Virus record (IMG/VR): IMGVR_UViG_3300043444_000331
Location: 1-21,515 of that record
Reading direction: 5' to 3' (one strand)
DNA: 21,515 nt
DNA from: a virus
The position numbers and the translations under genes are program-made. Under the pieces are notes generated by a model. That model was not told the origin of the DNA. It was given only the letters and a program-made list of their open reading frames with translations, and did not search any database. Positions 2,254 to 21,515 of this stretch are shown here, piece by piece. The first letter of the stretch is position 1. Each line of letters starts with the position of its first letter.

Positions 2254-2274
2254 ATTCAAAACTTTCTAGGGATT

Positions 2275-2282: not shown

Positions 2283-2287
2283 TTCAT

Positions 2288-3142: not shown

Positions 3143-3143
3143 A

Positions 3144-3752: not shown

Positions 3753-3760
3753 TATCCTAT

Positions 3761-3795
3761 AGAGGACTTGAATGACGCTCACCCCTCTCTAAATA
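3761..3795 (+). promoter_or_regulatory. leader hairpin and T4-late-type element
   Basis: AGAGG at 3761-3765 can pair with CCTCT at 3784-3788 around an 18-base loop. TCTAAATA (3788-3795, core TAAATA) follows at once and resembles a T4-like late promoter box. It lies 48 bases before the ATG at 3844. The rest of the gap, to the AGGAGG at 3832-3837, shows nothing else I can name. Confidence 0.35.
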
Positions 3796-3843
3796 CTCTG
3801 CGTGTCATCAAACTTACTCGCTTATTTTTACAGGAGGCAAGAG

Positions 3844-4371: not shown

Positions 4372-4530
4372 TTGAAAAAACTATGGCGCATATGGGCCAA
4401 AGCCCTTGGTGAAAAATCAGGAAAGGATAATGATGAAGCAGATAAAGTCGCATTTGTTAGATCTTGTATTGTTTTATTCTACATTGTTACTAATCTTTTT
4501 ATTATCGCAGGGGTTATAAGGCATTGGTAA
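4372..4530 (+). CDS. 52-residue single-span membrane protein
   Basis: Starting at TTG directly after the upstream stop codon, with GAGG at 4363-4366 as ribosome-binding site, this frame reads [18 protein letters not shown], then an acidic/polar stretch and a hydrophobic segment of about 21 residues (near [18 protein letters not shown]), ending RHW. The basic amphipathic N-terminus and single transmembrane helix suggest an inner-membrane protein. From memory, near-identical small proteins (MKKLW.IW.KA.G.K.GK) recur in T4-like aquatic phages, which makes it believable in spite of its size and TTG start. Function unknown. Its last seven bases overlap the likely kdsA start. Confidence 0.65.
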
Positions 4531-5375: not shown

Positions 5376-6153
5376 AGAAGAAAGAAAAAGACTCAAGGCT
5401 ATCAAACGTGCTGAAAAAGACGCAGAAGTAGCTAAAAAATCTTACGACCCTAATACAAAGATTACTGTATTATGTGTTAGGTTCGGAAATAGATATGGCA
5501 TGGATTATGTAGAGCGCCTACGTAATATGGTAGCAAGGCATATGACTATTCCGTATGAATTCGTATGTCTCACCGACAGCAACCATACCATCCAGGGTGT
5601 TAGAAATATAACACAACCTAATGCAGGTTATTCAAAAGGTTGGTGGCACAAAGTTCATATGTTTGATCCCACTCTACCTATCAGCGGAAGGATCATCTAT
5701 TTTGATCTAGATGTAGTCATACATGCAAACATCGATAAGTTAGCCACAGTATGGAATAATGATTTTTTAGGTATTAGAGATTTCAATAGGCACTTTTACA
5801 GTAGCTGGCAGTATCTAAACAGTTCAGTTATGGCTTGGAATCATGGAGAGCAGAGCCATATATGGAGAGATTTTAAAAAGAATCCAAACGAAGCGATGCG
5901 ACTTCCGGGAGATCAAGATTGGATCTGGAGAACTAGTAAAGATCGTATCAAATGGTGGCCTATCGAATGGATCCAAAGTTACAAGTGGGAAATACGTCGT
6001 CGTGAGGACCTCACTATACAGAACGGCAAAAGAAGATTTAAGAATCCCCAACATACAGTAAATATACATCCGGAATGTTGCGTTACTGTATTCCACGGCG
6101 ATCCTAAACCGCAAGATGTTACTGATCAATTTGTAGTGGACAATTGGAGATAA
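5344..6153 (+). CDS. GT8-like glycosyltransferase
   Basis: A 269-residue protein whose ATG lies inside the end of kdsA. After a charged helical N-terminus ([20 protein letters not shown]) comes a GT-A-type nucleotide-sugar domain: [12 protein letters not shown], then YFDLDVVI with the DxD motif (D121, D123) that holds the metal-diphosphate, LNSSVMAWN (acceptor-side strand), GDQDWI (D190-W193), and [10 protein letters not shown] near residue 249, like the HGxxKPW end motif of family GT8. It should transfer a sugar from a nucleotide donor; donor and acceptor are unknown. Together with kdsA and the sialyltransferase-like gene it suggests phage modification of a surface glycan, or of virion protein or DNA. 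The next gene follows at the TAATGTG junction. Confidence 0.7.
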
Positions 6154-6154
6154 T

Positions 6155-6985
6155 GTGTTAGATTTTTTTAGAAAGAAGAAAAGTTGGGTAAGATTTTATT
6201 CATTAGATCCTAATGTAGCTATCGCATATCCTGTAATTAATACAGCGGACGTTGATCGAGAATGGAATGGCTTAGGTAATACTAAAAGAAATAGACCGGA
6301 GCAAGGTCGCCAAACCGTTTTAAATTGTCCTGCGATTAAAACGATCGTTAATACCGGTTACGTTCTTAGAGCTCCTGCAGACTTTATTATCAAGACAGGC
6401 AAAGATCATCGTGACATCAGTTGGGAAACTCCGTTTATGTTCAAACGGCACAGTGACAAATATACGTTCAGCGGAACAGATTATTATGTTAGTTGGCACA
6501 GCCCCGAACAGACCGAACCACTGTTACCCAAAGAAGTCGCCCCAACAAATAAAGAATACCATCATTCTGCTATTAAAGTAGAAACTCCTTGGCGTGTAAA
6601 GGCCAGCGATGACATACTGTTATTACAGTTACCGGTTACTTATAACAATGAAGATCGATTCTCAGCAGCCATAGGGATCGTTGATCCAAAATATATGCAT
6701 GCCGTTAGTGTCCAATTATTTTGGCATATCACCGAAGGTGAAACATTAGTTAGAGCAGGAACACCGTTAGTTCAATATGTTCCTATTTCTAGATCGATGC
6801 TTCAAAAAAATAATACCGAATTCATAGTAGATACAGCAGATAAAGCCGAAGAAGAATTAGAAGATGCATATACATTTGTGAACCATAGCAGGTTTCCAAA
6901 AGCCGATACTGCCGGAAACAAAGTAAGAATGATCACAGAACTATTTGAGTATTTTAGAAACAAATATCCAAAAAAACGTATTTGA
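6155..6985 (+). CDS. phage protein of unknown function (276 residues)
   Basis: Starts at GTG 6155 (TAATGTG junction), with GGAGA four bases upstream; the ATG at 6153 meets a stop two codons later. The N-terminus is basic (MLDFFRKKKSWVRFY). The body is beta-rich, including GYVLRAPADFIIKTG, YYVSWHSPEQ, TPWRVKASDDILLLQLPV, then LFWHITEGETLVRAGTPLVQYVPISR. That last stretch looks like a jelly-roll strand set with a turn of the kind found in cupin-like folds. The C-terminus is helical and charged. From memory it may resemble the DUF6065 group, but I could not verify this. No catalytic residues can be assigned. It ends inside the -35 region of the uvsE promoter. Confidence 0.7.
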   Translation: MLDFFRKKKSWVRFYSLDPNVAIAYPVINTADVDREWNGLGNTKRNRPEQGRQTVLNCPAIKTIVNTGYVLRAPADFIIKTGKDHRDISWETPFMFKRHSDKYTFSGTDYYVSWHSPEQTEPLLPKEVAPTNKEYHHSAIKVETPWRVKASDDILLLQLPVTYNNEDRFSAAIGIVDPKYMHAVSVQLFWHITEGETLVRAGTPLVQYVPISRSMLQKNNTEFIVDTADKAEEELEDAYTFVNHSRFPKADTAGNKVRMITELFEYFRNKYPKKRI

Positions 6986-7010
6986 CTTTTTATACAAAGT
7001 GTGTTACAAT
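6982..7010 (+). promoter_or_regulatory. strong sigma70 promoter for uvsE
   Basis: TTGACT at 6982-6987, a 17-base spacer and TACAAT at 7005-7010 match the consensus at five of six positions each. The predicted start point (about 7 bases beyond the -10) is at 7016-7018, which is the ATG of uvsE itself. The -35 overlaps the TGA of the upstream gene (6983-6985). Confidence 0.75.
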
Positions 7011-7015
7011 ACTTT

Positions 7016-8080
7016 ATGACTAAACGTATTGGCTTCGCTTGCAAATGGATCGATCGCCCTGATCAGGTAGATGGCATTAAACCCAAGGACGATTGTAAAA
7101 AATATAACACAGGCTCTACTACAGTTGCCTGGTTAAATAGACAAACTAAGGATGTGTCTGTAGAAAAACTATGGTCATTGTTACATCAGAACATCGAGTC
7201 CAGTCGCCTCCTAGTTGAACGAGTAGGAGAATTGGATGAAGATCTTAGAATGGTTCGACTCAGCAGCGATATACTTCCTGTCTACACTGAGCCGACTTGG
7301 TGCTGGTTTTGGCGGCTTCCCGATGTCAGAGAAGCTTGTGAAAGAGGATTTCAACAGGTTGGGGATTTGGCTCGCTCGCGCAATGTTCGCCTTAGTTTTC
7401 ATCCTGGGCAGTTCACTGTCCTTGCTAGCGATAATCCAGATATCGTCAATAGGAGCATAGAAGAATTTGAATACCATGTGGACATGGCTCGTTGGATGGG
7501 TTACGGCAAGACGTTCCAAGACTTCAAGATCAACGTCCATATCGCAGGTAGACAAGGACCCATGGGAATCGTTGCTGCGCTGGCTCGCATGACGCCCGAA
7601 GCACGTAATACCCTTACAATCGAGAACGACGAGATTTCGTGGGGCATTGATTCTAGCATCGAGCTAGTCGACCATTGTGCCCTAGTCTTAGACATTCACC
7701 ACCATTGGATACATTCCGGAGAATATATTGAACCGACTAACGACCGTGTTAAAAGGATTATTGATAGCTGGCGTGGTGTGCGGCCTGTTATACATTATAG
7801 TGTTTCACGGGAAGAGCATCTTACTGACCATCCCACAGACACCCTTCCCGCCCTTGATGCGTTAATGACTCAAGGGCACAAAAAAGCAAAACTCAGAGCA
7901 CATTCAAACTTCTACTGGAATACAGCAGCGAATGAATGGGCACTGAGTTTTAGGGATTACTTCGATATCATGTGCGAGAGCAAGGCTAAGAACTTAGCCA
8001 GCTTTGCACTCTACGAAGAGGCAAAAAAAATTAACTTGCCTTTGGCTTACGACCACGCTTCGGAGCCGCTTCTTTCTTAG
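7016..8080 (+). CDS. uvsE: UV damage endonuclease (UVDE family)
   Basis: Nicks DNA directly 5' of UV photoproducts and starts an excision pathway independent of UvrABC. 354 residues from ATG 7016 (MTKRIGFACKW); the longer frame from GTG 7001 would run through the -10 box and is rejected. The TIM-barrel motifs are all visible in order: LSFHPGQFTVLAS, INVHIAG, TIENDE, LDIHHHWIHSGE, IHYSVSREEHLTDH and RAHSNFYWN, giving the His/Glu/Asp set that binds the metal cluster. Length is normal for the family. The last 50 bases overlap a minus-strand gene. There is no ribosome-binding site between promoter and ATG, so the message may be leaderless. The promoter suggests expression from host sigma70, probably early. 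Confidence 0.92.
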   Translation: MTKRIGFACKWIDRPDQVDGIKPKDDCKKYNTGSTTVAWLNRQTKDVSVEKLWSLLHQNIESSRLLVERVGELDEDLRMVRLSSDILPVYTEPTWCWFWRLPDVREACERGFQQVGDLARSRNVRLSFHPGQFTVLASDNPDIVNRSIEEFEYHVDMARWMGYGKTFQDFKINVHIAGRQGPMGIVAALARMTPEARNTLTIENDEISWGIDSSIELVDHCALVLDIHHHWIHSGEYIEPTNDRVKRIIDSWRGVRPVIHYSVSREEHLTDHPTDTLPALDALMTQGHKKAKLRAHSNFYWNTAANEWALSFRDYFDIMCESKAKNLASFALYEEAKKINLPLAYDHASEPLLS

Positions 8081-8264
8081 GAGCAGCAGGCTTCTTAGCA
8101 GGAGCCTTTTTCTTGGGCGCAGGAGTTTCTGCTACTGGAGCCGGAGCAGCTTCTACTACAGGAGCAGGGGCTGATTCAACTACAGGTGCTTCAACTTTGT
8201 ATGGGGCTTCCGCAGTTGCTTCTGCTGGTTTACCGCCAAATAGTTTTTTAATTAAACCTAACAT
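8031..8264 (-). CDS. small Lys/Ala/Pro-rich basic protein with AT-hook-like tail
   Basis: A 77-residue minus-strand gene with a strong AAGGAG (8278-8273) eight bases before its ATG. It starts MLGLIKKLFGGKPAE, a hydrophobic amphipathic head. A middle of Ala/Pro/Glu/Val repeats (EAPVVESAPAPVVEAAPAP) comes next, then a histone-H1-like tail (KKKAPAKKPAAPKK) ending KRGRKPKAS, where RGRKP resembles an AT-hook core. It looks like a disordered linker joining a small head to a DNA-binding tail. Possible roles are DNA compaction or binding to phage or host DNA (inference). The gene converges on uvsE and overlaps its end by 50 bases. The promoter is likely the minus-strand TAAATA element at 8290-8285. 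Confidence 0.75.
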   Translation of the reverse strand: MLGLIKKLFGGKPAEATAEAPYKVEAPVVESAPAPVVEAAPAPVAETPAPKKKAPAKKPAAPKKEAAPKRGRKPKAS

Positions 8265-8284
8265 GGTAAAATCTCCTTATGGTT

Positions 8285-8302
8285 TATTTAGTGCGGTAAA
8301 TA
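8285..8302. promoter_or_regulatory. back-to-back late-promoter boxes (divergent)
   Basis: TATTTA (8285-8290), GTGCGG, TAAATA (8297-8302) form a perfect inverted repeat with a 6-base centre. Read on the minus strand the left half is ACTAAATA, before the basic protein gene at 8264; on the plus strand the right half is GGTAAATA, just before the superoxide dismutase ATG at 8308. This is the arrangement expected of two divergent T4-type late promoters. Confidence 0.5.
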
Positions 8303-8307
8303 TTAAC

Positions 8308-8865
8308 ATGCTACATTTTATTAAAAGTCTAAAAGAATCCGAAGATAAACGTGAAATTTATCAAGATAAGCTCAAGTTCGATAAAAACGAGCTAGATCCT
8401 GTGATGAGCGAAGCTACCATCAAATATCATTACGATGGTTTGGCCAGCAAATATTCAGAACGATATAACAAAGGCGAAGGCGATGCTGATTTTAACTACG
8501 GCGGTGCTATGCTGCACAACATCTTCTTCGCTAATCTTACCCCTCCTAGAGCCGCTAATAAACCCGAGGGGCTCAGTAAATCTATCATAGACGACAAGTA
8601 TGGCAGCTTTGACAAGTTCAAAGAAGCCGTGGAAAAAACTGCTATGAGTATACAGGGCAGCGGTTGGCTATATATGGATAAGTCTGGTGAAATACAGACT
8701 ATACGCAATCATGAATATAAGAAGAACATGAAGATTGCACTGTTGATTGATTGGTGGGAACATGCATGGGCCCTTGATTATCAACAGGACAAAGCCAAAT
8801 ACCTTAACAACATTTGGCGTATCATCGACTGGGAAGTTGTTGATATTCGACTACAAGGAGCATAA
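8308..8865 (+). CDS. Fe/Mn-family superoxide dismutase
   Basis: Converts superoxide to peroxide and oxygen. Chosen start ATG 8308 (MLHFIKSLKES) gives 185 residues, about the size of bacterial SodA/SodB; a longer frame would run antisense through the minus-strand gene. Metal ligands H41 (TIKYHYDGL), H70 (GGAMLHNIFF), D148 and H152 (IDWWEHAWALDY) are all present, with GSGW (117-120) and the closing IIDWE. The gateway Tyr is kept (Y49), but the His that pairs with it is Leu (L45), and the outer-sphere Gln site reads NH (N134, H135); a His there is seen in some cambialistic or archaeal enzymes. So metal choice and activity cannot be taken as standard. No signal peptide: cytoplasmic. The TAA is followed one base later by the next gene's ATG. 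Confidence 0.88.
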   Translation: MLHFIKSLKESEDKREIYQDKLKFDKNELDPVMSEATIKYHYDGLASKYSERYNKGEGDADFNYGGAMLHNIFFANLTPPRAANKPEGLSKSIIDDKYGSFDKFKEAVEKTAMSIQGSGWLYMDKSGEIQTIRNHEYKKNMKIALLIDWWEHAWALDYQQDKAKYLNNIWRIIDWEVVDIRLQGA

Positions 8866-8866
8866 A

Positions 8867-8980
8867 ATGTTAGATACAATCTTATTATTATTAGTAGGTG
8901 CATTTATTGGTTGGCATTTTCCAGAGCCTGCTTGGGCTAAGGTAATCAAAGCCAAACTCTTGTCAATGATCAAGAAGTAA
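8867..8980 (+). CDS. 37-residue membrane protein
   Basis: Begins one base after the superoxide dismutase stop, with AAGGAG at 8855-8860. It reads MLDTILLLLVGAFIGWHFPEP, then WAKVIKAKLLSMIKK: a single transmembrane helix at the N-terminus followed by a basic amphipathic tail. From memory, short proteins with L.GAF.GW.FP.P.WAK are common in T4-like aquatic phages, often near structural or metabolic genes; function is unknown. The iscU ribosome-binding site overlaps its stop codon, so it belongs to the same transcript. Confidence 0.65.
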   Translation: MLDTILLLLVGAFIGWHFPEPAWAKVIKAKLLSMIKK

Positions 8981-8989
8981 GGAGATAGT

Positions 8990-9382
8990 ATGTCATACTC
9001 AGAGAAAGTGATCGATCACTACGAAAACCCTCGTAATGTAGGTAGTTTCTCTAAGGACGAACCCGGGGTGGGCACCGGTATGGTTGGTGCTCCTGCCTGC
9101 GGGGATGTTATGAAACTACAGATAAAGGTAGACGATGATACAGGTATTATTACAGATGCGAAATTTAAAACGTATGGCTGCGGATCGGCTATCGCGAGCT
9201 CGAGCTTGGTCACAGAGTGGCTTAAAGGCAAAACACTCGATCAAGCCGGAACAATCAAAAACTCAGCCATCGCAGAAGAACTAGCATTACCGCCAGTAAA
9301 GATACATTGTAGTATCCTAGCAGAAGATGCTATCAAGGCCGCGGTAGCAGATTACAAGAATAAACATGTTAACAGTAACTGA
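8990..9382 (+). CDS. iscU: iron-sulfur cluster scaffold protein IscU
   Basis: Scaffold on which [2Fe-2S] clusters are built from sulfur delivered by the desulfurase IscS, before transfer through HscA/HscB. The 130-residue protein is complete: [20 protein letters not shown], cluster ligands C37 (in APACGD), D39, C64 (YGCGSA), H106 and C107 (KIHCSI), and LPPVK at 100-104, the binding site for the HscA chaperone. It is strikingly like proteobacterial IscU over its whole length, pointing to a proteobacterial donor (from memory). AAGGAG lies five bases before the ATG. No IscS, HscA or ferredoxin gene is in the window, so host partners must be used. erpA starts inside its end (17-base overlap). Confidence 0.97.
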
Positions 9383-9677
9383 ATCGGCACAGGCTAAGAT
9401 TTTTGATATCTTAGCAGAAGAGAATAATCCAAAACTAAAAGTTCGGGCATTCGTCCAGGGCGGAGGATGCTCTGGATTCCAATATGGATTTACCTTGGAC
9501 GAAGAACAAAATGACGATGATTTTGAGATCAACGGCATATTAATAGATTCTATGAGTATGCAGTATATGACTGGTGCTACTATAGACTATAAAGAAGATA
9601 TACACGGTAGTCAATTTGTCATACAAAACCCTAACGCTGTTACTACCTGCGGATGCGGATCTAGTTTTTCAGTATGA
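9366..9677 (+). CDS. erpA: A-type Fe-S carrier ErpA
   Basis: Accepts clusters from scaffolds and inserts them into target enzymes. 103 residues with the three A-type ligands C35 ([11 protein letters not shown]), C95 and C97 (TCGCGSSF). The CSGFQYGF string and the CGCGSSFSV end are those of ErpA, not of IscA. It begins in the last codons of iscU, with only a weak ribosome-binding site (coupled translation), and ends overlapping iscA by four bases (ATGA). Compared with the E. coli protein it lacks only the short N-terminal extension. Function is very probably retained. Confidence 0.93.
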
Positions 9678-10000
9678 TAACTGTAACCGAAACTGCTAAA
9701 AATAAAATAAAACAACTGCTTAAATCTAGAGGAAAAGGAGCAGGAATCCGATTAGGTGTAAAAACCACAGGCTGTTCAGGACTGGCTTATACTCTAGAAT
9801 ATGTAGATGATTATCAAGCAGAGCTTGGAGTAACAAATTTTGCTCAAGAAGATTTCGTAGTATTAGTTGATCAAAAATCTCTTGTATATCTAACCGGTCT
9901 TACGGTTGACTGGGTTAAACATGGGCTAAATGAGGGTTTCGAATTTATCAATCCCAACGAACGAGATCGTTGCGGCTGTGGTGAGAGTTTTAGAGTTTAA
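9674..10000 (+). CDS. iscA: A-type Fe-S carrier IscA
   Basis: Second A-type carrier, 108 residues, the length of E. coli IscA. Ligands C34 (TTGCSGLAY), C100 and C102 (RCGCGESF) are intact, and [12 protein letters not shown] and [11 protein letters not shown] match IscA closely. Binds iron or a cluster and hands it to apo-enzymes. It starts at the ATGA overlap with erpA and ends in a one-base overlap (TAATG) with the oxygenase gene. ErpA and IscA share the fold but differ in targets, so the pair is not a recent duplication: the two carry distinct family signatures. Confidence 0.94.
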
Positions 10001-10584
10001 TGAGCGAACATAACACATATAATGCTGATCACTATCCAACAATTTTAAATCACGTAGAAACTAATACGGATTTAATTTATATCTTTGACAACACTGTTCC
10101 TGTTGAAGATTTAAAAAGAATAAAAAAATATGATTGGTTTTTAGGCGATTGGAACAACGGATATAACTATTGGCCTTCACCGAGCACGGAACTTCCCTTT
10201 GCAGATCTCCTCTGCAAAATCATGGTAGATCATTTAAAGTCTATCGATCAAAATATAAAAGTCGTGGAACATATAGGGTCTTATTATGTTTTAAGACATC
10301 AAACTAAAAATAACTTAACTGATAATATACACAGAGATTATTATAATAAAAAGCATGTATGGACTGGTGTTTTTCATCTGATAGGAGAATCTACTCCTAC
10401 AGTTTTTTATCCAAACTTTCAATCAGTTATTCCTATTAAACAGGTAGAATTTAAGCCCGGCAGGCTAGTTATATTCCCTTCTTTATACGCTCACAAAGCT
10501 GGAGATCTTGATATTAATGAAACGAGATTGATACACAGCATCAGACTGCTGTTAGATTGGGATAAAAATCAAAATTATTTTTAG
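10000..10584 (+). CDS. 2-oxoglutarate/Fe(II)-dependent oxygenase-like protein
   Basis: A 194-residue protein of the prolyl-4-hydroxylase-like jelly-roll type. The iron triad is visible: H111-x-D113 in NIHRDYY, and H165 in SLYAHKAGD, with R176 eleven residues on as the likely 2-oxoglutarate-binding Arg. TGVFHLIG and the FKPGRLVIFPS strand fit the fold. Such enzymes hydroxylate protein, nucleic acid or small substrates with loss of CO2 from 2-oxoglutarate; the target is unknown. From memory they are common auxiliary genes in T4-like aquatic phages. It is the last gene of the Fe-S cassette (one-base overlap with iscA). The stop overlaps the end of the convergent minus-strand gene by four bases. 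Confidence 0.72.
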   Translation: MSEHNTYNADHYPTILNHVETNTDLIYIFDNTVPVEDLKRIKKYDWFLGDWNNGYNYWPSPSTELPFADLLCKIMVDHLKSIDQNIKVVEHIGSYYVLRHQTKNNLTDNIHRDYYNKKHVWTGVFHLIGESTPTVFYPNFQSVIPIKQVEFKPGRLVIFPSLYAHKAGDLDINETRLIHSIRLLLDWDKNQNYF

Positions 10585-10868
10585 AATTTACTCACTGGTA
10601 AATCTAAACTAGCTGGCATATCCCATATCTTTTTGCGCTCGACTCCCTTACGCTGAGCAAACCTTTTAGGATCACAATCAGCACAACAATGAAAATAATT
10701 GTCGCTTAGGCGCTTTCTATCCACATGTTTAAGATCCCTGTTGAATTCCTTCCCGCAATTATCGCATAAAAAGATCGCCAGTGTCTTTTTACGCTTATAC
10801 GTATGAGCTTGGCCTAGCTTACTGACCCTTGTGTATTCACTTTCTGTTGTTATAGATTTCACGAACAT
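10581..10868 (-). CDS. zinc-ribbon phage protein
   Basis: A 95-residue minus-strand protein from ATG 10868; a GTG one codon earlier is possible. Two cysteine pairs, C35xxC38 (LCDNCGKEF) and C62xxC65 (with C61), suggest a treble-clef or zinc-ribbon site. The surroundings are basic (YKRKKT, KRFAQRKGVERKKIWDMP), which fits nucleic-acid binding. The arrangement recalls the zinc half of HNH-type nucleases, but I see no HNH catalytic His-Asn-His, so I do not call a nuclease. From memory the tail FAQ.KGVER.KIWDMP is conserved in related phages. No strong ribosome-binding site. Convergent four-base overlap with the oxygenase gene. Confidence 0.68.
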   Translation of the reverse strand: MFVKSITTESEYTRVSKLGQAHTYKRKKTLAIFLCDNCGKEFNRDLKHVDRKRLSDNYFHCCADCDPKRFAQRKGVERKKIWDMPASLDLPVSKF

Positions 10869-10900
10869 CACATATTTACATTCGGCTTATAAAATTTTCC

Positions 10901-10908
10901 GATAAATA
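10901..10908 (+). promoter_or_regulatory. T4-late-type promoter element (GATAAATA)
   Basis: Same 8-mer as at 2275-2282, here 30 bases before the ATG of the giant tail gene and in a gap that must hold its promoter, since the upstream gene is divergent. A start point around 10914 is expected. Confidence 0.6.
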
Positions 10909-10910
10909 AC

Positions 10911-10924
10911 TGAGCAACTGCTCA
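10911..10924. repeat. perfect 6-base inverted repeat in leader
   Basis: TGAGCA, AC, TGCTCA. It can fold as a 5-base stem with an AACT tetraloop at the predicted 5' end of the giant gene's message, five bases before its AGGAAG ribosome-binding site (10929-10934). As a short double-stranded palindrome it could also be a protein-binding site. Confidence 0.5.
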
Positions 10925-10938
10925 TTCTAGGAAGAATT

Positions 10939-13900
10939 ATGGCAAGAAAAGTTATTGATATAGGTTCTGTTGGTAATGACGGAACCGGTGATAGTATTAG
11001 AGACTCGTTTAGAAAAGTTAATGATAACTTTAGAGAACTCTACAGCTCGTTAGGATTAGGAGAACGATTAACTTTTATCGCTCTCGACGATACTCCAACT
11101 ACCTACGTTGGTCAAGAAAACGCGGTTCTAGCTGTTAACAGAACCACAGACGGATTAAAGTTTAAGCAGATCGCTGCTGGAACAGGTATCGTTATCGACA
11201 ACCTCACTAACGAAAGTGAGATTAGAATCAGCACACAGTTCTCTGAAATTTCAGGAGACCCTAGCCCGCAATTAGGTGGAGATTTAAGTGCTAGATCTGG
11301 CGGTAATCAATGGCGTATCAAAGATCTAACAACTCCTGTCAGCGCAGACGAAGCTTCTAATAAAGGTTATACAGATACTAAAATATCCAAAGCTGGTGTT
11401 GATGCTATAGATCCTGCCACAGGATTAGTGAATCCATCATTTGGTAGAATGTCTGGTCCATTGATTCTTTCTAGGAATCCGATACCAGAAGACGATACGA
11501 TCTACGGCGGACTTGTTGCTGCTACTAAAGCCTATGTTGATAACTCATCTTTCGGCTCTGTTACTAACCTCTATGTAGCACTTTCTGGCCAAGATGATCG
11601 ACCAGGCGTAAGTCCAGCACTACAAGGTCGTGCTCTTGCTTATGCTTATCGAACACTAGAAGCAGCATTAAAACGTGCTGAAGAAATACAATTAGAATCT
11701 AGACTAGAACTAGGTCCATACCAAAAATTACTAACATTTAATAACGGAGCAGGAACTTGCACGTTAACAGACATTGACAGTTCTCCAACTTCCGGTATAG
11801 GTTTCGCTGCCACTGTTAAGATGAGTATAGATACCATCACTGCTAATAACAACGGTGTTAACTATAACGTAGGTGATCGATTAACACTCAGCGGTGGAAC
11901 TGTAGCATCAGGTGGTGGTCCAGCTGTAATCGAAGTTCTTTCTACTGCAACTACTCCAGGTGCTATCGTAACATTTAGAATTATCTCAACTGGTGTTTAT
12001 ACTGTTCTTCCAGGAGCTACTGGAATCACAACTACCACAGACAGTGCATTCGGTAGTGGCGCAACATTCGACGTAACTTATAAAGTTAACTCGGTAGCTA
12101 TCACAAACGGTGGATCAGGTTATTCCTTAGTTTCTGTTAGGATAACAGGTGGTGGTGGAACTGGTGCATTCGGAACTGCTGTTGTTAGTGGCGGAGTTAT
12201 CACTTCCATCGTCATCGACGATCAAGGATCGGGATTTACTACTCTACCAACTATCATTGCCGACCTTCCTAGATTCTTAATTCGAACAGACAACTATAGA
12301 ACTGACTTCACTGGAGATGTTTTAACAAATACTCCAACTGCATATAGAGGTAGAGATATCCGAGAAGGACTCTATCTAAAAGGTCTCAACTCAGGAGCGT
12401 TGGCCCAAATACTTGCCCACTCTGGTGCATTAGACAGCGGCGGAAATGAAATATTCGATGTTGATATCAAATACGGTGCTTTCGAAATCGGCGAGCCTAT
12501 TATGTATGGTGATGCTGCTAGACAGACTCAAGTCACAGTTCTAGTCGAAAGCGGTATCTATGAAGAAAACTATCCGTTAAGAGTTCCGCAAAATACATCT
12601 ATCGTCGGCGATGAATTCAGACGTGTTATTATAAGACCTAGACAAGGAACATCATCAAGCCCTTGGGCATTCATGAAATTCCGTAGAGATTTAGAAAATG
12701 ACGGTTTGACCACTGCCGACAGACTCTTTGGATACCACTATCTACAGAACACAGCACAACCAGTCTACCCTAAAGTAGATAACAAGGGTGCATATAGACT
12801 AGCAGCACAGCTTCTAACACTGAATAGAATATTCTTAGCTGAAGAAACTGTGGCCTGGATCGATGATCAAATCTCTTCTGGCACCGCCCCGTTTACCACA
12901 ACATTTACCTATAATAGTGCAACCTGCAAACGAGATGCGAGCTTGATTATCGATGCTCTTATATTCGATCTTAAATATGGCGGTTATGCTAGAACCATTT
13001 CAGCTGCATTAAAATATTATCAAAATGCCAGCGGGCGCATCGCGATCACAACTCAATTATCACAGACACTGGCCGCAGTAGATAGATTAAATGTTATCGC
13101 TCGTCAAGTAGTTAATAACGTTGCCGTAACTGTAAGTCAAAGCGATTTCTCTCAAGTCATCGACACAGCTTACATAGCAGAATCAGGAGCCATTGATGTT
13201 ATCGACGATTTGTTCGTTGCACTCAAAGATGTAATGGACGGATCGGGATCTGTTAACTATCCTAAAGAAAACGATCAGATGGATGTATTCCTTGCTAACG
13301 ATGCTGTTCGTTGGCAGGCTATTACTGCTCAAGGACACGGCGGTTTCATGTGTGTGCTTGATCCAGAAGGACAGATCCTTGCTAAATCTCCATACGCTCA
13401 AGAATGTGCATCGTTCTCTAAGAGTATAGATGCACAGACATTCGCTGGTGGTATCTTCGTTGACGGCTTCGCTGGAAACTTAGAATTCAAGATTACTAAT
13501 GTTGTAAGTTCTACAAGATTAGAAGTAACTGGTTTAGATCGATATCCTCAACTACCATGTAGCTTTATCTATCTAGACACAGTATATCGAATCAACTACA
13601 TTAGAGACTTCGTTTATAACAAAGACGGATCGTCGGCTACATTCGTATTAGATGAAACTACTCAATGGCCTTACAGTTTATTCTCATACAACGAATCGAT
13701 CTGTAACAGAGACGTTGGATTGATCATAGATGGTCTAGGTTACGATGTTGTATTCCAAACTAATTACCATTCTAGAAAGGCTGGTTCGACTTATCGCTTA
13801 GCCAATGCCGAAGTTGTTATTGACAGCCAAAAAGATCTTACAATAAGAGCTATCGAATATGCTCACACATTAGCCAAAGACACTGTTGCTGATACAACTT

Positions 13901-16900
13901 CTAAAAATACCGTTGATACAAGTTCTTCGGTTATAACAAAGATCGTTAACAGAGGTTTGATATATTCTCCGACCTTGATAATGACCAATCCACCAGGATT
14001 ATCAACTGACCTAGCCAATGCTAAAACATTATTGTTGGCCAACGTTGACTATATCAAAGACGAAACAGTAGCTTGGATCAACGCACAGATCGCCGGTGTT
14101 ATATCACCGTTCACTGGATCATTTGTATATGATTCAATAACCTGTGCTCGAGACGTTGGCTTTATCTGCGAAGCAGTGGCCTACGACTTAGTCTACGGTG
14201 GAAACAGTCAAACTAGAGATGCCGGATTAAAATACTACGACGGTGTTGGTTCAGCTATCACTAACCAAATTACCGGTCAGGTCACTGAAACTGCTGCGGC
14301 ATTAGATTACACAAAGTATTTGATTAAACAGGTAATCCAAAACTTAGCACCAGCATCATCTTATTCTACTACACCAAGAGTCACAGGAACAGGTGCTACT
14401 GCAACAGAAGCTGCTACTGTAGAAACATTAATGGCTAATTTAGTAGCCACTGTCAGTGGCGGTGTTGGATCTGCTCCGGCAGAAACATTACCAAACTTAG
14501 GATCTTATTCTTATACCGCAGCATTGTTAACAGCAAGAACAGCATTGCAAACCAATAAGTCAACGATACAAACACAGACTATTGGGTTCGTCAACGTCAA
14601 CGCAAACTTGTATGAAATACTAATGCCTGGTAATAGATCTATCCTAGGCAATGACTTTACACAGGTCAACGACATGGGCTATGGTATTTTTGCTACCAAC
14701 GGCGCTTTAGTTGAAGCTGTGTCGATGTTCACATACTATTGCTACACTTCATACTATTCGTTGAACGGTGCTCAGATTCGTTCTGTGGCAGGTTCGTCAG
14801 CACACGGCGTATATGCTTTAGTTGCAGAAGGTTCAGACCCGCTGGAAGTTTCAACTCCTACAACAATGTATTTCGATGTAGCTCAAAGAGTTGATTGCTA
14901 TTATCCAAGTCCAAGCTATGCTAACACCACAGGCGGTTTGTTTATCTATGTAACCAATTACGATTATGAACCACTTAATAACTCAGAACTAGAAGTTGAT
15001 CATGGTAATTTGATCTACAGATATCCAGTTACTTCTGTTACCACAGCTGACCTACCAACAGGTGTTGCTAGATTAAACTTAACCAGCGATACCACAGGAA
15101 ACTTTGACGGATTGTATGCATCTATCGCAGACGGAACAAAGATGTCATTGAGATCTAATTCTCAAATCATCTTAACCGGCGACCTAGTTGAAGTAGCTGT
15201 TCGACCATCTACTGGTCTAGTATTAGCTGAATCGGAAGACGTATATCGTGTTCTACAGTTTGAAGACTACAGCGATACTAGAAACGAACCATATGGTGTT
15301 TTATTCACAGCAGGTTCGCCTGGAGTAATATCTTTAACTTCTACTGTAACAACTATCGCATCAAACGTTTGCACAACTAGTTCAAACCATAGATTGAGAC
15401 TGGGTGACAGATTCATTCCGACATCCACTGCCAACGGATTTACTTCTGGAACAACTTATTACATTATTGACGTTCCGGCATATAATCAATTTAAAGTTTC
15501 AACTTCTCCTTCGGGAAGTTCTGCTACATTAACTAACGGAACTGGACTTACTATCGTTGGAAGAAGAACTCATAGATTCTTAGAAAACTTTACAGTCAGT
15601 TTCACTACTACAGGAACTTTACCAACAGGTTATGCTATAGGAACTACCTACTATGTTATATCAGATGGATTAACTAACACTGATTTTAGATTAGCTGCTT
15701 CAGCCAACGGAACCCCTATAGTCATAGCCAGTGCAGGATCTGGAACACATAGACTGTTCATGGAAGGTCTGACTAAGACAACTCTTAGAGAAAACTACAA
15801 CTACATAGATTTTACATATTTCCAACCTGGAGAATATGTCTCGGGAACAACAGCAACCTGCACCGTAACAATAGCTTCTCCAGCAGTGGTTACCAGACTG
15901 TCACATGGATTTGCGGCAGGTGATGTCTTAAAATTCACAACCGATGGAAGTTTACCGACAGGTATCAGTTTAAACAAACACTACTTCGTTCTTTCAACAG
16001 GACTTACCACTGATACTTTTAGAATTTCTGAAGCTCCGGGCGGCACGGCCGTTGATACTTCTGGTTCACAATCCGGAACACATACTGTAGGTAAGGTAAC
16101 AGGTAGAGCAGGCGATACTAATTTCGCAGTGGTAGCTCTAAGCCCTGCAGACACTGCCAGAGCCGACGGAAGTAAATTTGTATTCCGTGGCGAAGAATAT
16201 ATCGTTTCTAACTACGAAAACGAAACAGATACAGGACAACCATACGGTAGAGTTACACTTAATAGAGCTCTAGTTGATCCGATAAATGCCTATCAAAATT
16301 CACATACGATCAAAGCAGGTGTTCCTATCAGATCGGATGGCGCTGATGGTTCTCTAACTATTCGTATTTCGTTAACTCGTGTAACCGGTCATGATTTGTT
16401 AGAAATCGGAACAGGTTCTTATGCCGACACTAACTATCCAAACGAAATTTACGGGCCGCCAGTTAATGCTGTTAACGATGCTAACGAAGTCGAAGAACGT
16501 AGCGTAGGTCGTGTATTCTATGTAACCACTGACCAATTTGGTAACTTTAGAGTTGGACCTTACTTCAGCGTTGACCAAGGAACTGGTAGAGTATCGTTCT
16601 CAGCGGCTATCGCTCTAAGTAACTTAGACGGTATTGGTTTCAAACGTGGTGTGCCAATCTCAGAGTTCTCAACAGACTCCGGAATGACTGACAACGCCAC
16701 AGACACTGTGCCTACAGAGAATGCTACTAGAACATATATCGATAGAAGATTAGGTCTATCACACAGCGGTAGTCCAGTAGTCAGTGCCAGTTTAATACCC
16801 CCAGTCAGCGGAGGCTTTATGGCCCTAGACGGTCAGTTAGGCATGAAGGGAACCATGGATCTTAATAATAACAAGATCATCAACCTTTCAAACCCAACTA

Positions 16901-18282
16901 ATCCGCAGGACGCTGTTAACTTAAGAAGCTTGACATTTAATAACTTACAAGAATTTACAGTAACAGATGTTCAAGCAGCCGATGTTATCACATTCACTGG
17001 CTCTGGAAACAGTGCCATCAATGCTAGGATCATTGGTGATATTTCTTTTGAATTAAGATCGGGTGTTGACAGTGCAGTAAATCAAATCGATGCTCAGATC
17101 CAAGCAGGTGCTATCCTTAATGCTGATGTTAATGCTTCAGCGGCTATCGATCAAAGTAAGCTGAACATGAATGCTGCTACCACCAGGGGTAACGCCACTG
17201 GTATTACACAGGCAGATAGAGGACTAGCAAGTTTTGATTCTAATCAGTTTGATGCGACCAGTGGTTGGATATCTGTTAAGAATAACGGAATATTAACTAG
17301 CAAAATTGAACAGATCGGAACAAAGACTGTTTTAGGTAACTCCGGACTAAGCACAGCCAACGTAGCAGCAGTGGCATTTACCACAGTGGTCAACGACGGT
17401 GGTGCTGTTAAGAAAACACAATATAGTTCATCTGGCTTCTTAAGAAGAACAGGCGGCACAGGTGCATCCGACGGCGACTACACTGTGATCGATTCTGCTG
17501 CTGGTTCAAGTTCATCTGTCGAAGCTAGCAAACTTATCGTAAGAGACAGCAATGGTGACTTCGGTGGAAGGACTGCTGATCTTCAATCATTGAAGATCGA
17601 CACTAACCTAGCTGTTGATACTGCAACTGCTGGATCAGGCGGCTACATTAGATTCTATGGTTATAACACAGCAGGTGGTATTCTAATATCAGATGGAACA
17701 TTGGCTATCGATAAGAAAACCGCTTACTGGAACGATGCACATAACTTTAAAACACAGAACGGTGTTAGCGATGCGCCTATTACCTGTTCAAGTGTGCAGA
17801 CAACTGCATTAACCACTGGTGGTAATACTACATCAGGAACTATCACAGGACGTTGGACTCTAACAGGAACATCACCAAACGAATCAAGATTACAGGCAAC
17901 ATATTCCGCCGACCTAGCAGAATACTACGAAGGCGACAAAGAATACGAAGTAGGCACAGTTCTTGTGTTTGGTGGTGACAAAGAAGTTACTACTACGAAC
18001 ATCAAAGGTGATACCAGAGTAGCTGGTGTTGTTTCTAACACCGCAGCGTTTGTCATGTATGATGCTTGTCCAGGATTTAAGAACTTGGTCGCACTACAAG
18101 GGCGTGTTCCTTGTCGTGTAGCAGGAAAAATTAAGAAAGGCGATCTGTTAATAACATCATCAATAGCTGGTGTTGCAATAGCCGCTGTAGATGTGAAGGT
18201 AGGAACTGTGGTCGGTAAGGCCTTACAAGACTACGACTCAGATCATATTGGAACAATTGAAATTGCGGTAGGGAGAACATAA
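10939..18282 (+). CDS. giant multi-domain tail/fibre structural protein
   Basis: 2447 residues. Residues 1-38 carry the anchor motif (VIDIGSVGNDGTGD, FRKVNDNFREL). A GPLILSRNP segment and a pectate-lyase-like beginning (ALSGQDDRPGVS, residue ~215) follow, with Gly-rich strands at 389-440 and SGIYEENYPLRVPQNTSIVGD near 535, the pattern of right-handed beta-helix tail proteins. Three copies of a CxRDxG module begin at about 655, 915 and 1062. An MPGNRSILGND segment lies at ~1229. Three beta repeats with GTTYY/PTG/GTHR run from ~1469 to 1720. The C-terminal ~120 residues (DLAEYYEGD, VALQGRVPCRVAGKIKKGD) form a domain I recall as a frequent end of aquatic-phage tail proteins. Role: virion adhesion or baseplate-attached fibre (inference). 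AGGAAG lies before the ATG; a late-type promoter is upstream. No frameshift seen. Confidence 0.85.
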   Translation: MARKVIDIGSVGNDGTGDSIRDSFRKVNDNFRELYSSLGLGERLTFIALDDTPTTYVGQENAVLAVNRTTDGLKFKQIAAGTGIVIDNLTNESEIRISTQFSEISGDPSPQLGGDLSARSGGNQWRIKDLTTPVSADEASNKGYTDTKISKAGVDAIDPATGLVNPSFGRMSGPLILSRNPIPEDDTIYGGLVAATKAYVDNSSFGSVTNLYVALSGQDDRPGVSPALQGRALAYAYRTLEAALKRAEEIQLESRLELGPYQKLLTFNNGAGTCTLTDIDSSPTSGIGFAATVKMSIDTITANNNGVNYNVGDRLTLSGGTVASGGGPAVIEVLSTATTPGAIVTFRIISTGVYTVLPGATGITTTTDSAFGSGATFDVTYKVNSVAITNGGSGYSLVSVRITGGGGTGAFGTAVVSGGVITSIVIDDQGSGFTTLPTIIADLPRFLIRTDNYRTDFTGDVLTNTPTAYRGRDIREGLYLKGLNSGALAQILAHSGALDSGGNEIFDVDIKYGAFEIGEPIMYGDAARQTQVTVLVESGIYEENYPLRVPQNTSIVGDEFRRVIIRPRQGTSSSPWAFMKFRRDLENDGLTTADRLFGYHYLQNTAQPVYPKVDNKGAYRLAAQLLTLNRIFLAEETVAWIDDQISSGTAPFTTTFTYNSATCKRDASLIIDALIFDLKYGGYARTISAALKYYQNASGRIAITTQLSQTLAAVDRLNVIARQVVNNVAVTVSQSDFSQVIDTAYIAESGAIDVIDDLFVALKDVMDGSGSVNYPKENDQMDVFLANDAVRWQAITAQGHGGFMCVLDPEGQILAKSPYAQECASFSKSIDAQTFAGGIFVDGFAGNLEFKITNVVSSTRLEVTGLDRYPQLPCSFIYLDTVYRINYIRDFVYNKDGSSATFVLDETTQWPYSLFSYNESICNRDVGLIIDGLGYDVVFQTNYHSRKAGSTYRLANAEVVIDSQKDLTIRAIEYAHTLAKDTVADTTSKNTVDTSSSVITKIVNRGLIYSPTLIMTNPPGLSTDLANAKTLLLANVDYIKDETVAWINAQIAGVISPFTGSFVYDSITCARDVGFICEAVAYDLVYGGNSQTRDAGLKYYDGVGSAITNQITGQVTETAAALDYTKYLIKQVIQNLAPASSYSTTPRVTGTGATATEAATVETLMANLVATVSGGVGSAPAETLPNLGSYSYTAALLTARTALQTNKSTIQTQTIGFVNVNANLYEILMPGNRSILGNDFTQVNDMGYGIFATNGALVEAVSMFTYYCYTSYYSLNGAQIRSVAGSSAHGVYALVAEGSDPLEVSTPTTMYFDVAQRVDCYYPSPSYANTTGGLFIYVTNYDYEPLNNSELEVDHGNLIYRYPVTSVTTADLPTGVARLNLTSDTTGNFDGLYASIADGTKMSLRSNSQIILTGDLVEVAVRPSTGLVLAESEDVYRVLQFEDYSDTRNEPYGVLFTAGSPGVISLTSTVTTIASNVCTTSSNHRLRLGDRFIPTSTANGFTSGTTYYIIDVPAYNQFKVSTSPSGSSATLTNGTGLTIVGRRTHRFLENFTVSFTTTGTLPTGYAIGTTYYVISDGLTNTDFRLAASANGTPIVIASAGSGTHRLFMEGLTKTTLRENYNYIDFTYFQPGEYVSGTTATCTVTIASPAVVTRLSHGFAAGDVLKFTTDGSLPTGISLNKHYFVLSTGLTTDTFRISEAPGGTAVDTSGSQSGTHTVGKVTGRAGDTNFAVVALSPADTARADGSKFVFRGEEYIVSNYENETDTGQPYGRVTLNRALVDPINAYQNSHTIKAGVPIRSDGADGSLTIRISLTRVTGHDLLEIGTGSYADTNYPNEIYGPPVNAVNDANEVEERSVGRVFYVTTDQFGNFRVGPYFSVDQGTGRVSFSAAIALSNLDGIGFKRGVPISEFSTDSGMTDNATDTVPTENATRTYIDRRLGLSHSGSPVVSASLIPPVSGGFMALDGQLGMKGTMDLNNNKIINLSNPTNPQDAVNLRSLTFNNLQEFTVTDVQAADVITFTGSGNSAINARIIGDISFELRSGVDSAVNQIDAQIQAGAILNADVNASAAIDQSKLNMNAATTRGNATGITQADRGLASFDSNQFDATSGWISVKNNGILTSKIEQIGTKTVLGNSGLSTANVAAVAFTTVVNDGGAVKKTQYSSSGFLRRTGGTGASDGDYTVIDSAAGSSSSVEASKLIVRDSNGDFGGRTADLQSLKIDTNLAVDTATAGSGGYIRFYGYNTAGGILISDGTLAIDKKTAYWNDAHNFKTQNGVSDAPITCSSVQTTALTTGGNTTSGTITGRWTLTGTSPNESRLQATYSADLAEYYEGDKEYEVGTVLVFGGDKEVTTTNIKGDTRVAGVVSNTAAFVMYDACPGFKNLVALQGRVPCRVAGKIKKGDLLITSSIAGVAIAAVDVKVGTVVGKALQDYDSDHIGTIEIAVGRT

Positions 18283-20147
18283 TGCCATTAGAACAGATAA
18301 CATCAGGCTCACCACCGTTACTTTGGAGTAACGTTAATGACGCATTTACTAAAATTAATGCTAACTTTGAAACATTAGCAGCGTCTATCAGTGGGGGCGG
18401 ATCGTTAATCGATTTTGAACAGTTTGATAATAATTTAATACCGACTACCTCAAATACGATCCGGTTAGGCGATATCATCAAACCATGGAAACGATTGCAC
18501 GTTGACAGTTATAGAGATAACTTAACTGATACCATGAACGGCCTTTGGTTAGGACCAGCTCACATTAAAGGAATCGATACTAGCATAGATCTTCCTGCTG
18601 GTTCTATGGTTAACGGAAATTTAATCATTGATCCAGAAAAAACTTTCTTCAAGCGTGTATCAGTTGACGACTTTAATGTCATCGAAGCTAACGAATTTAG
18701 TGATACTCTAAATCTTACAGCCGGAACTGCGATGCAGTTGGTAGTGGATAGTTCAGCAGAAAGAATCACGATCAACAATGCTGGTGTAACAGGATTAGTG
18801 GGAGGGACTGCTATATCAGTTAGTGCTGCCACAGGCAACATCACTGTAACTAACACAGGTGTTACCAGCTTAACAAATTCAACTTCATTGCCCAGTGGAC
18901 TAACTGCCGGTTCTGGAATTTCTGTAAGTGCTGCCACTGGCGGAGTTTTAATTACCAACACAGGTGTGTTAGAAGTCCAACAAGGTTTCGGTATCACAGT
19001 ATCAACAGATCTTGCTACAGGTATCGCAACAATTTCAAACTCTGCCCCGGCGCAGGTTACATTTAGAAACTATGTGATCAATGGAGATACACTAAACCCG
19101 ATCGTAGCTGACAGCACATCAGACACCATGTATATCAACACAGGTTACGGACTGATCACTACTAAAGATGTGGCCACAGACACAATTAATATTTCCTTAA
19201 ACCAAAGAATAGATATTAATGGTTCTGTGTTCGGTGATGATTCATCGATATTAGTAGACGGTGTTAACAATTATATCTATGGTAATGTTTCAGCAACAAC
19301 GCTAAGGACAAGTGAAACGAGCATCTCTCTTGGATATCGGGCTAGAGCTTCAAGCAGCACTGGATATAGCGTAGGCATTGGTTGGCAAGCAGGTTTAACT
19401 AACCAAAATGGTTATGCAATAGCTATCGGGCAACAGGCTGGAGAAACCTCTCAGGGAACAAGCTCAATAGCATTTGGACCTCAGGCAGGACAGACTAGCC
19501 AAGGAAGCATTGCCGTTGCTATTGGTCAGAGCGCAGGTGAAACCAGTCAAGGTTCTTCCGGAATAGCGATTGGTTATTATGCCGGCAAGGACACTCAAGA
19601 TTCAGGGGCAGTTGCCATAGGTTATACCGCAGCTCAAATTACACAAGGTCAAGCAGGTGTAGCAATTGGTTGGAGTGCTGGTCAAACCAATCAAGGCGAC
19701 TATGCTATCGCCATTGGTTATAGAGCAGGTTTTACAAATCAAAATTCAAGTTCCATAGTATTAAATGCCAGCGGCGCGGCACTAGAAGCAGCAGCCGCTG
19801 GATTATATATTAATCCAATACGTTCATCCGGCAACGGCCGACCACTGATGTATGACACGACCACCAGTGAACTATTTTCAAGTAACGTATTAGAATTCGT
19901 AGGCAGCACTATCTCAACCAGCGATTCTAGTGCTGTGCAGTTTGATAGTCCGGTTAATTTTCAAACTTCTATTATCATTGACGGAAATACAACATTTAAA
20001 GACAGTTTGATTATTTCTAGCGGTGACATAACGTTTCCGGATTCAAGCAAACAAACAGGCGCTGCGATCAGTATTGCAGAATTGAAATCGTTAGTGGCAG
20101 CGGCTGCTACCTATGCTGATTTCCAAACAGCTATAGCGGCATTATAA
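18282..20147 (+). CDS. tail/fibre protein with YadA-head-type repeats
   Basis: 621 residues; its ATG shares one base with the preceding stop (TAATG), behind an AGGGAGA site. The N-terminus is a divergent form of the shared anchor (NVNDAFTKINANFETL). Residues ~175-255 hold repeated ISVSAATG..T.TNTGV strands. Residues 361-488 are eight 16-residue units with the AIGxxAG core of YadA-type trimeric adhesin heads (Hep_Hag), normally a left-handed beta-roll. The C-terminus contains FPDSSKQTGA, similar to a common fibre motif, and a helical TYADFQTAIAAL end. It is probably a trimeric fibre that contacts the host surface; it follows the giant protein in the same operon. Confidence 0.82.
   Translation: MPLEQITSGSPPLLWSNVNDAFTKINANFETLAASISGGGSLIDFEQFDNNLIPTTSNTIRLGDIIKPWKRLHVDSYRDNLTDTMNGLWLGPAHIKGIDTSIDLPAGSMVNGNLIIDPEKTFFKRVSVDDFNVIEANEFSDTLNLTAGTAMQLVVDSSAERITINNAGVTGLVGGTAISVSAATGNITVTNTGVTSLTNSTSLPSGLTAGSGISVSAATGGVLITNTGVLEVQQGFGITVSTDLATGIATISNSAPAQVTFRNYVINGDTLNPIVADSTSDTMYINTGYGLITTKDVATDTINISLNQRIDINGSVFGDDSSILVDGVNNYIYGNVSATTLRTSETSISLGYRARASSSTGYSVGIGWQAGLTNQNGYAIAIGQQAGETSQGTSSIAFGPQAGQTSQGSIAVAIGQSAGETSQGSSGIAIGYYAGKDTQDSGAVAIGYTAAQITQGQAGVAIGWSAGQTNQGDYAIAIGYRAGFTNQNSSSIVLNASGAALEAAAAGLYINPIRSSGNGRPLMYDTTTSELFSSNVLEFVGSTISTSDSSAVQFDSPVNFQTSIIIDGNTTFKDSLIISSGDITFPDSSKQTGAAISIAELKSLVAAAATYADFQTAIAAL
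19362..19745 (+). repeat. eight 48-base coding repeats (16-residue units)
   Basis: Eight consecutive in-frame units, each with the pattern xxAIAIGxxAGxTxQG, e.g. SIAVAIGQSAGETSQG. DNA-level identity is moderate, so the units are old rather than freshly duplicated. The pattern is that of YadA/Hia head repeats. Confidence 0.85.
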
Positions 20148-20160
20148 TTGGAGCGGATAG

Positions 20161-20418
20161 ATGGCTAAACAATCAATAAACATAGGCGCAACAGCAAACG
20201 ATAGGACCGGTGATAGCCTTAGAGCCGCTTTCAACAAAGTTAATGCTAATTTTACAGAGCTATATGCAAGACCAGTTCCTTCGACAAGTCAAGGCGCATT
20301 AGGTGACGTTAAAGGAATGGTAGCTGTAGACTACAACTATTTGTATATCTGTGTAGCAGATTATGACGACAGCACAGTTATTTGGAAGCGTATTCCTTGG
20401 CCAGATGATACCTGGTAA
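20161..20418 (+). CDS. minimal anchor-plus-tip tail protein (85 residues)
   Basis: Residues 1-36 repeat the shared anchor almost exactly (INIGATANDRTGD, AFNKVNANFTELY). Only about 45 residues follow, containing GDVKGMVAVDYNYLYICVAD and ending IWKRIPWPDDTW. This looks like a small beta module rich in Tyr and Trp, broadly like the Trp-rich end of the protein at 2288. GGAG is seven bases before the ATG. It appears to be a reduced member of the family: anchor and one small end domain. Probably a virion protein; partner and ligand unknown. Confidence 0.75.
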   Translation: MAKQSINIGATANDRTGDSLRAAFNKVNANFTELYARPVPSTSQGALGDVKGMVAVDYNYLYICVADYDDSTVIWKRIPWPDDTW

Positions 20419-20421
20419 ATA
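20414..20421 (+). promoter_or_regulatory. possible late-type promoter element (GGTAAATA)
   Basis: The TAAATA core overlaps the TAA stop of the 85-residue gene and lies 19 bases before the next ATG. The overlap with a stop codon makes a chance match more likely than for the other boxes. Confidence 0.3.
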
Positions 20422-20439
20422 TTAAAGAGAGCGTAAATT

Positions 20440-20988
20440 ATGGCTATACAGACAATCAACATAGGTAATCAAGTAAACGATGGTTTAGGTGATGACCTAC
20501 GCACGGCATTTGAAAAAGTTAATGCCAATTTCTCAGAGTTAGTATCTAATGTGTTTACCACTGCTTCTAACATCGGTGACACAGGCACAGGGCTGTTTAA
20601 GCAGAAAGTGGGTGCCGATCTACAGTTTAAGAAATTAGTATCAGGAACTAAGATCTTAATCGACGATGCTCCAAATTCAGTTATTATCAATAACACAGCA
20701 CCTGATGCATTTACTAGGATTGATACCAACGCTGGAACAGTAAGTGCAGGAACGTTCCAACAGATCACTATACAAGGCGGCGACGATATCGATGTCACAG
20801 CATTAGGATCTGTGATCACAGTTAGCAATGTTATTCCTGTAACCAGCATTTTAACTACCTATGACTTCGGTCCTATAACAGGAGCATTTACAAATTCATC
20901 TCAACTAGCACTGGCTTTTTCAAACGTTGATTTTGGAACAGTTACTACACCTTCTACAGTCAATCTTGATTGCGGTAGTATCGTTTAA
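20440..20988 (+). CDS. anchor-type tail protein (182 residues)
   Basis: The N-terminus is again the anchor (TINIGNQVNDGLGDDLRTAF, EKVNANFSELVSN). Beta-strands typical of phage fibres follow (FKKLVSGTKILIDDAPNSVII, TFQQITIQGGDDIDV, LGSVITVSNV), then a C-terminal part (TTYDFGPITG, SNVDFGTVTTPSTVNLDCGSIV) that may be a small tip domain. No catalytic motif. The next gene has AAGGAG overlapping this gene's stop. Its place between two other tail proteins makes it a virion component by context. Confidence 0.75.
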   Translation: MAIQTINIGNQVNDGLGDDLRTAFEKVNANFSELVSNVFTTASNIGDTGTGLFKQKVGADLQFKKLVSGTKILIDDAPNSVIINNTAPDAFTRIDTNAGTVSAGTFQQITIQGGDDIDVTALGSVITVSNVIPVTSILTTYDFGPITGAFTNSSQLALAFSNVDFGTVTTPSTVNLDCGSIV

Positions 20989-21000
20989 GGAGCAGGCTAG

Positions 21001-21515
21001 ATGGCTATTACTTGGCTAACACCAGCAGGAAGCCTAGGAACAATCACTGAACGTGTGATTCAAAACATCACGGTCTCAGCAATAACGAACACATCAAATC
21101 CTGTTACCTATTCAGTGATATCTGGTTCTTTGCCTAGAGGCTTGAGACTCAGCGGAAATAAAATCGTTGGTTCTCCTGTCGAAGTTAGAAAATATACCGA
21201 AAGTAGATTCGTTATCCGTGCATCGGATTCAGTAGACATAGAAGATCGAACATTCAGTATCTCCGTCGACGGGTCCGATATCCCTCAATGGATAACTAGA
21301 GAAGGATTTTTAAATGTTGGTTTCGGAGATGCATATTTTGTTTTAGACAATAGTTATGTTAACTTCGCGCTAGACGTTTACGATCCAGATTTAAATGCTG
21401 GAGAAGTTTTAAAATTTTATCTCACTCCCACAGGAGGAGAATTACCTCCAGGTCTTAGCATCAGCGAAGATGGTGTGATTTCTGGATACACTGATCCTAT
21501 ATTTGCTGTTGAATA
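21001..21515 (+). CDS. Ig/cadherin-like repeat tail protein (5' part only)
   Basis: 171 residues are visible before the window ends with the frame open. AAGGAG (20987-20992) lies eight bases before the ATG. Two putative-Ig (He_PIG-type) units can be recognised: VTYSVISGSLPRGLRLSGNK with IVGSP around residues 37-60, and LPPGLSISEDGVISGYTDP near residues 149-167, with ISVDGSDIPQW between. Such xLPxGLxLxxxGxIxGxP units are adhesion repeats. It does not carry the anchor motif, but begins ITWLTPAGSLGTI. Likely another surface or tail protein; total length unknown. Confidence 0.8.
   Translation, partial: MAITWLTPAGSLGTITERVIQNITVSAITNTSNPVTYSVISGSLPRGLRLSGNKIVGSPVEVRKYTESRFVIRASDSVDIEDRTFSISVDGSDIPQWITREGFLNVGFGDAYFVLDNSYVNFALDVYDPDLNAGEVLKFYLTPTGGELPPGLSISEDGVISGYTDPIFAVE

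Follow-up and report, generated by a model that had tools for sequence, protein, structure and literature searches.

A T4 gp9/gp10-type N-terminal segment on four neighbouring tail proteins of an uncultured phage, with the distal part replaced at one gene position

We analysed a complete IMG/VR virus record, 21,515 bases long and called the window here. It carries four neighbouring genes, at positions that we call slots A to D, whose products begin with related N-terminal segments of ~36 residues, the anchors (Table 1). The record L003 continues the window: its bases 1-2657 are identical (100%) to window 18859-21515. In G001, a related record of 134,843 bases, we found homologues of T4 gp5, gp6 and gp25 as well as a portal and a prohead protease. 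The group is therefore T4-like with a contractile tail, the joint presence of gp5, gp6 and gp25 homologues being a property of G001 and not of the window itself.

Table 1. Features of the anchored gene cluster in the window
Feature	Position	Strand	Evidence or remark
Slot A, giant fibre-like protein, 2447 aa	10939..18282	+	PF07880, 28.6 bits at residues 3-39
Slot A anchor, residues 1-37	10939-11049	+	87.5% conserved among slot-A orthologues
Slot B, 621 aa, YadA-head-like repeats	18282..20147	+	E 1.4e-4, leave-window-out profile
Slot B divergent anchor, residues 1-36	18282-18389	+	NDG.GD loop replaced by PPLLW
Slot C anchor, codons 1-35	20161..20265	+	PF07880, 26.9 bits; 90.4% identical to L012 (with 20 nt upstream)
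Slot C distal part: ~12-residue linker and small terminal cap (GDVKGMVAVDYNYLYICVADYDDSTVIWKR)	20266..20418	+	differs among relatives
Slot D, 182 aa	20440..20988	+	68.3 bits, leave-window-out profile; PF07880, 17.5 bits at residues 4-136
Slot D anchor, residues 1-37	20440-20550	+	leave-window-out profile
He_PIG (Ig-like) tail protein, start, after slot D	21001..21515	+	PF05345; 823 aa, complete in L003

Outside this cluster the window holds host-type metabolic genes at 3802-10000: a PTPS/QueD-like protein, a member of the DAHP/KDO8P synthase family, a UV endonuclease UvdE, an Fe/Mn superoxide dismutase, a NifU-like scaffold and two IscA-like Fe-S proteins. A small conserved ORF lies on the minus strand just upstream of the giant fibre gene (window 10581-10871; 286-573 in G001). 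Another fibre-like protein, at 2273-3142 and with start codon TTG, has PHROG matches to tail fibre C-termini and is devoid of anchor. Rfam gave no match in the window.

The anchors were assayed with a profile built from 38 anchors that lie on other contigs, the window's own copies being excluded (leave-window-out profile). It detects the proteins at 20161 (E 6.7e-26), 20440 (2.9e-21) and 10939 (2.2e-20), and more weakly the one at 18282 (14.9 bits; Table 1). The window contains no further match below E 1, and in controls made by shuffling and reversing the ORFs of every locus (about 1 Mb protein) none reached E ≤ 1. The initial annotation had noticed this shared N-terminal motif from the letters alone, and the profile bears it out. 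It had also described the parts behind the motif as very different in length, and indeed from about 50 to about 2410 residues follow the anchor in the window proteins. Among the relatives, the start codon lies directly at the anchor in 245 of 246 anchored ORFs.

The weaker copy proposed at 18282 is genuine too. Its orthologues lie at the same position and some display intermediate forms of the anchor (MAKQIIDPKKAPILWETVYDAFGKINDNFTELY), while the profile of these orthologues aligns with the anchor profile over its full length (hhalign, 97.8%, E 1.3e-12); the 18282 copy is thus homologous to the anchor, in a protein without any match in Pfam or PHROG. The slot A protein, for its part, has PHROG tail fibre matches in its middle and ends with a ADLAEYYEGDKEYEVG... 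domain. A further protein, starting SINENFPVAGEDNDTQVFRDNFDTIK (L012 4823-5422), has an anchor-like appearance, but the profile comparison gave 5.8% and we do not count it as another anchor. It follows the He_PIG protein, is very conserved, occurs also in L003 and G001 (22392-22979), and has no Pfam or PHROG match. G001 further carries, at 75391-83613 on the minus strand (L089/L090), four adjoining tail-collar-like proteins with a different common N-terminal module (...GKNYSGFGEALNENLIKILENF...), a second family with a shared N-terminus in the same phage group.

Judged from profile matches, the anchor is a known module: it corresponds to the first ~36 residues of Pfam T4_gp9_10_N (PF07880), the N-terminus of the T4 baseplate proteins gp10 and gp9, and of phrog_677 and phrog_958, named "baseplate wedge tail fiber protein connector" and "baseplate wedge subunit". 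Against solved structures the profile matches T4 gp10 at residues 2-36 (E 8.3e-14) and T4 gp9 at residues 7-41 (E 5.1e-6), and in 9f4a it matches gp10 (1e-10) and gp9 (2e-8). As a control, the whole T4 genome searched with the anchor returned exactly gp9 and gp10. With the Pfam cut-off at 25 bits, the slot A and slot C proteins pass PF07880 and the slot D protein stays below it (Table 1); the 18282 protein has no match in this search. The full Pfam region has 175 positions and includes the domain behind the helix. The proteins at 10939 and 20161 match positions 1-37 of it only, while the slot D protein aligns weakly to positions 2-150, and slot D may thus carry a gp9/gp10-type N-terminal region.

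The anchor consensus is present in 1,773 of 50,697 phage records, at 1,799 places. The annotated matches listed in this search comprise unnamed ORFs and proteins of the baseplate or tail; no named non-structural function appears among the annotated reference matches listed. Modelled as monomers, the proteins at 20440 and 20161 reach low confidence (pLDDT 65.7 and 71.7, pTM 0.28 and 0.47 respectively), and both models place an extended N-terminus before a helix from residue 18/19 to 36/38. Fold searches with these two models gave no significant match. A match to T4 gp10 (2fl8; 35 columns, 2.2 A, 54% identity, E 8.9) is a hint only.

Four anchors are found in each of G001, G002, G004-G006, G014-G016, G018, G026 and G027, and five in G013, the fifth (L131) on a collagen-like protein. 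Elsewhere the numbers are lower: two in T4 and one each in Prochlorococcus phage P-SSM7, Pelagibacter phage Mosig and Bordetella phage PHB09; P-SSM2 yielded no anchor. The mean identity of anchors at the same position is 87.5% (A), 70.5% (C) and 76.5% (D), against 51-58% between positions, and the identity comparison gives no sign of homogenisation within a genome. In a tree of 105 anchors, which rests on 40 columns and leaves many forks unresolved, 4 changes separate the four positions (minimum 3; shuffled mean 51.5; 0/200 shuffles). Since slot D had at first been picked partly by its anchor letters, it was re-tested with distal homology only: GDDLR is present in 66/66 slot-D anchors defined in this way versus 13/181 others. 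The anchors therefore sort by gene position and not by genome; they are position-specific and old.

These data bear on the proposal of the initial annotation of one shared docking site on the virion, for which the four fibre proteins would compete or alternate. Homologous anchors in all four proteins and a single gene cluster would fit it. But different positions of one genome share only 48-59% identity, while the same position across genomes shares 70-88%, the tree separates the positions, and four or five anchors are kept together in many records. We thus hold a single site to be quite improbable. The position-specific sorting points instead to different addresses, each position probably having its own. 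Still less credit can be given to the idea that the anchors are leftovers of tandem duplication, sharing descent but no common function. The paralogues do lie side by side on one strand, as this would predict; nevertheless their divergence is old and purifying selection is strong, and the anchor is conserved across contigs of very different origin and beside distal parts that are not. We regard this last explanation as very improbable.

At slot C the distal part is replaced. Compared with the window, L011 and L012 show 87% identity over 11700 to 19309, 90.4% over 20141-20265 (20 nt upstream and 35 anchor codons) and 94.2% from 20414 on. Behind the anchor, from codon ~35 to the stop, the window has 148 nt where L011/L012 have 1,642 unrelated nt, encoding 546 unrelated residues. 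At base level the similarity stops at FTELYA and resumes at GGTAAATATTAAA, at the stop codon. The same pattern of replacement separates the window from L097, with a 482-residue protein. Relatives display at this position stubs of 66-74 residues (~30 of them after the anchor), anchor-plus-cap proteins of 85-89 residues, forms of 110-120 residues and fibres of up to ~970. In L110 the anchor is combined with a shaft of the L012 type and with the cap seen in the window; the slot C protein of the window therefore looks like an anchor and a cap without shaft. The cap itself is modelled as a small beta domain (local pLDDT around 82), for which the fold search hints only weakly, and non-significantly, at small chitin-binding domains (E 0.6 and above). 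Its motif GD..G..A.D..Y.Y.C..YD.ST.IWKR occurs at window 20266-20418, at the end of L110, and in L004, L005 and L039; the cap thus recurs terminally on otherwise different anchored proteins.

The slots are not equal in this respect. The slot C distal part is homologous over at least 70% of its length in 40/465 pairs, versus 829/1128 pairs for slot D, whose distal part is common to 65/70 slot-D proteins. Even among pairs with slot-D proteins at least 60% identical, the slot-C distal parts are homologous in only 67/200. Six families of slot-C distal parts were obtained, a lower bound of the diversity because single-linkage clustering merged chains of partly shared modules. The distal part of slot A is related in 45/45 pairs, and the C-terminal end of slot B differs between the window and its near relative L011. 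The plug-in system with exchangeable distal parts, as first proposed, thus holds at 20161 and in part at another position, but not as a general rule. The replacement at the anchor edge of slot C would explain how such phages can exchange tail fibres.

Anchors are under purifying selection, with pN/pS of 0.13 (A), 0.20 (C) and 0.22 (D). For the stub-only proteins (66-70 aa) the values, from few pairs, are 0.07-0.15 in the anchor and 0.13-0.19 in the short tail; the stubs are therefore maintained proteins and not debris. This bears on a further explanation, in which the segment is mainly a start for trimerisation or folding of fibrous proteins and other parts attach them to the virion. The anchor helix could form a coiled coil, beta-rich fibrous parts come after it, and phages in which no T4-type wedge is known carry the anchor as well. 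But this explanation seems unlikely to us because conservation peaks in the NDG.GD arm and at N28, N30 and F31, with no obvious heptad pattern, because the anchors are specific to position, and because purifying selection persists with only ~30 residues behind the anchor, where there is no fibre to trimerise.

Attachment of the proteins to the baseplate therefore stays our preferred reading, and we consider it fairly likely as a whole: T4-type anchors, docking on the wedge at individual addresses, and a distal part swapped at 20161. On this reading all four are T4-type proteins, of the fibres or of the baseplate periphery, and belong to an uncultured T4-like phage. What carries each of them is a paralogue of the N-terminal T4 gp9/gp10 segment, in which an extended arm with NDG.GD precedes a single alpha helix; the segment is probably trimeric. 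T4 gp9 binds gp7 through its N-terminal domain and carries the long fibre on its C-terminal one, and the first 200 residues of gp10 are 23% identical to gp9 (PMC3004832). By analogy with T4 gp9, the most likely role of the anchor is to fasten each protein to the wedge, at the equivalent of gp7, and small differences between the copies would give each its own position. In G001 the candidate for gp7 is a protein of 4618 residues encoded after gp6. The partner need not always be gp7, since two phages of ~43 kb without known T4-type wedges carry the anchor at the start of a tail-region protein: Bordetella phage PHB09 (29897-31468, L082), a siphophage by name and layout, and Bradyrhizobium phage ppBeUSDA76-1 (32838, L137). 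Recombination between phages, with its upstream edge at the end of the anchor and its downstream edge at the stop codon, exchanges the distal part at 20161, and in part the end of the 18282 protein. Depending on the phage, slot C would then hold either a fibre that binds a receptor or no more than a short cap or stub.

The closest known system is T4 gp10/gp9 itself (PF07880; phrog_677, phrog_958): structural proteins of contractile-tailed phages with the same N-terminal segment, already two per genome in T4. Here, in contrast, four neighbouring proteins carry it (five in G013), including one of 2447 residues and one resembling a stub, and the gp9/gp10 domain behind the segment is not detected outside slot D. 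The gp9 of Kyanoviridae (e.g. P-SSM7, Mosig) bears the same anchor on a single protein per genome, encoded between the gp6 and gp8 genes and adjoining the wedge genes, whereas here the copies form an array in a separate cluster. In G001 all four anchored genes lie within 645-19452; some 80 kb separate them from the gp25/gp6 cluster, a distance that counts against our preferred reading. The O-antigen tailspikes of Klebsiella and E. coli phages (PMC10408124, PMC8262889) also combine a conserved N-terminal anchor with a horizontally exchanged distal part, conserved DNA being the recombination edge. Their anchor is another one, and the present phages carry several paralogous anchors each, with one position that can also be filled by a stub. 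In CBA120, several tail proteins are likewise attached via T4 gp10-related modules (PMC8825819), but there the XD1-XD3 domains branch from one anchored protein, TSP4, while here each protein has its own short anchor.

The module is thus a known docking module, found here in an unusually large array, and distal exchange can be demonstrated at one of its positions. More tentatively, the phages may possess an addressed array of 4-5 paralogous gp9/gp10-type anchors, one position each, in which one position takes either a fibre or a plug (the anchor and ~30 residues); one recombination event at the edge of the anchor could then switch a receptor-binding fibre on or off. In practice, the anchor is a 36-residue handle for tail and fibre genes missed by annotation, e.g. 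the 18282 protein. Slot C, a fixed position, offers a natural series of swaps that ranges from stubs to full fibres, and it becomes testable whether short anchors carry positional addresses. The docking segment of T4 gp9/gp10 and the modularity of receptor-binding proteins would thereby be united in a widespread group of uncultured phages.
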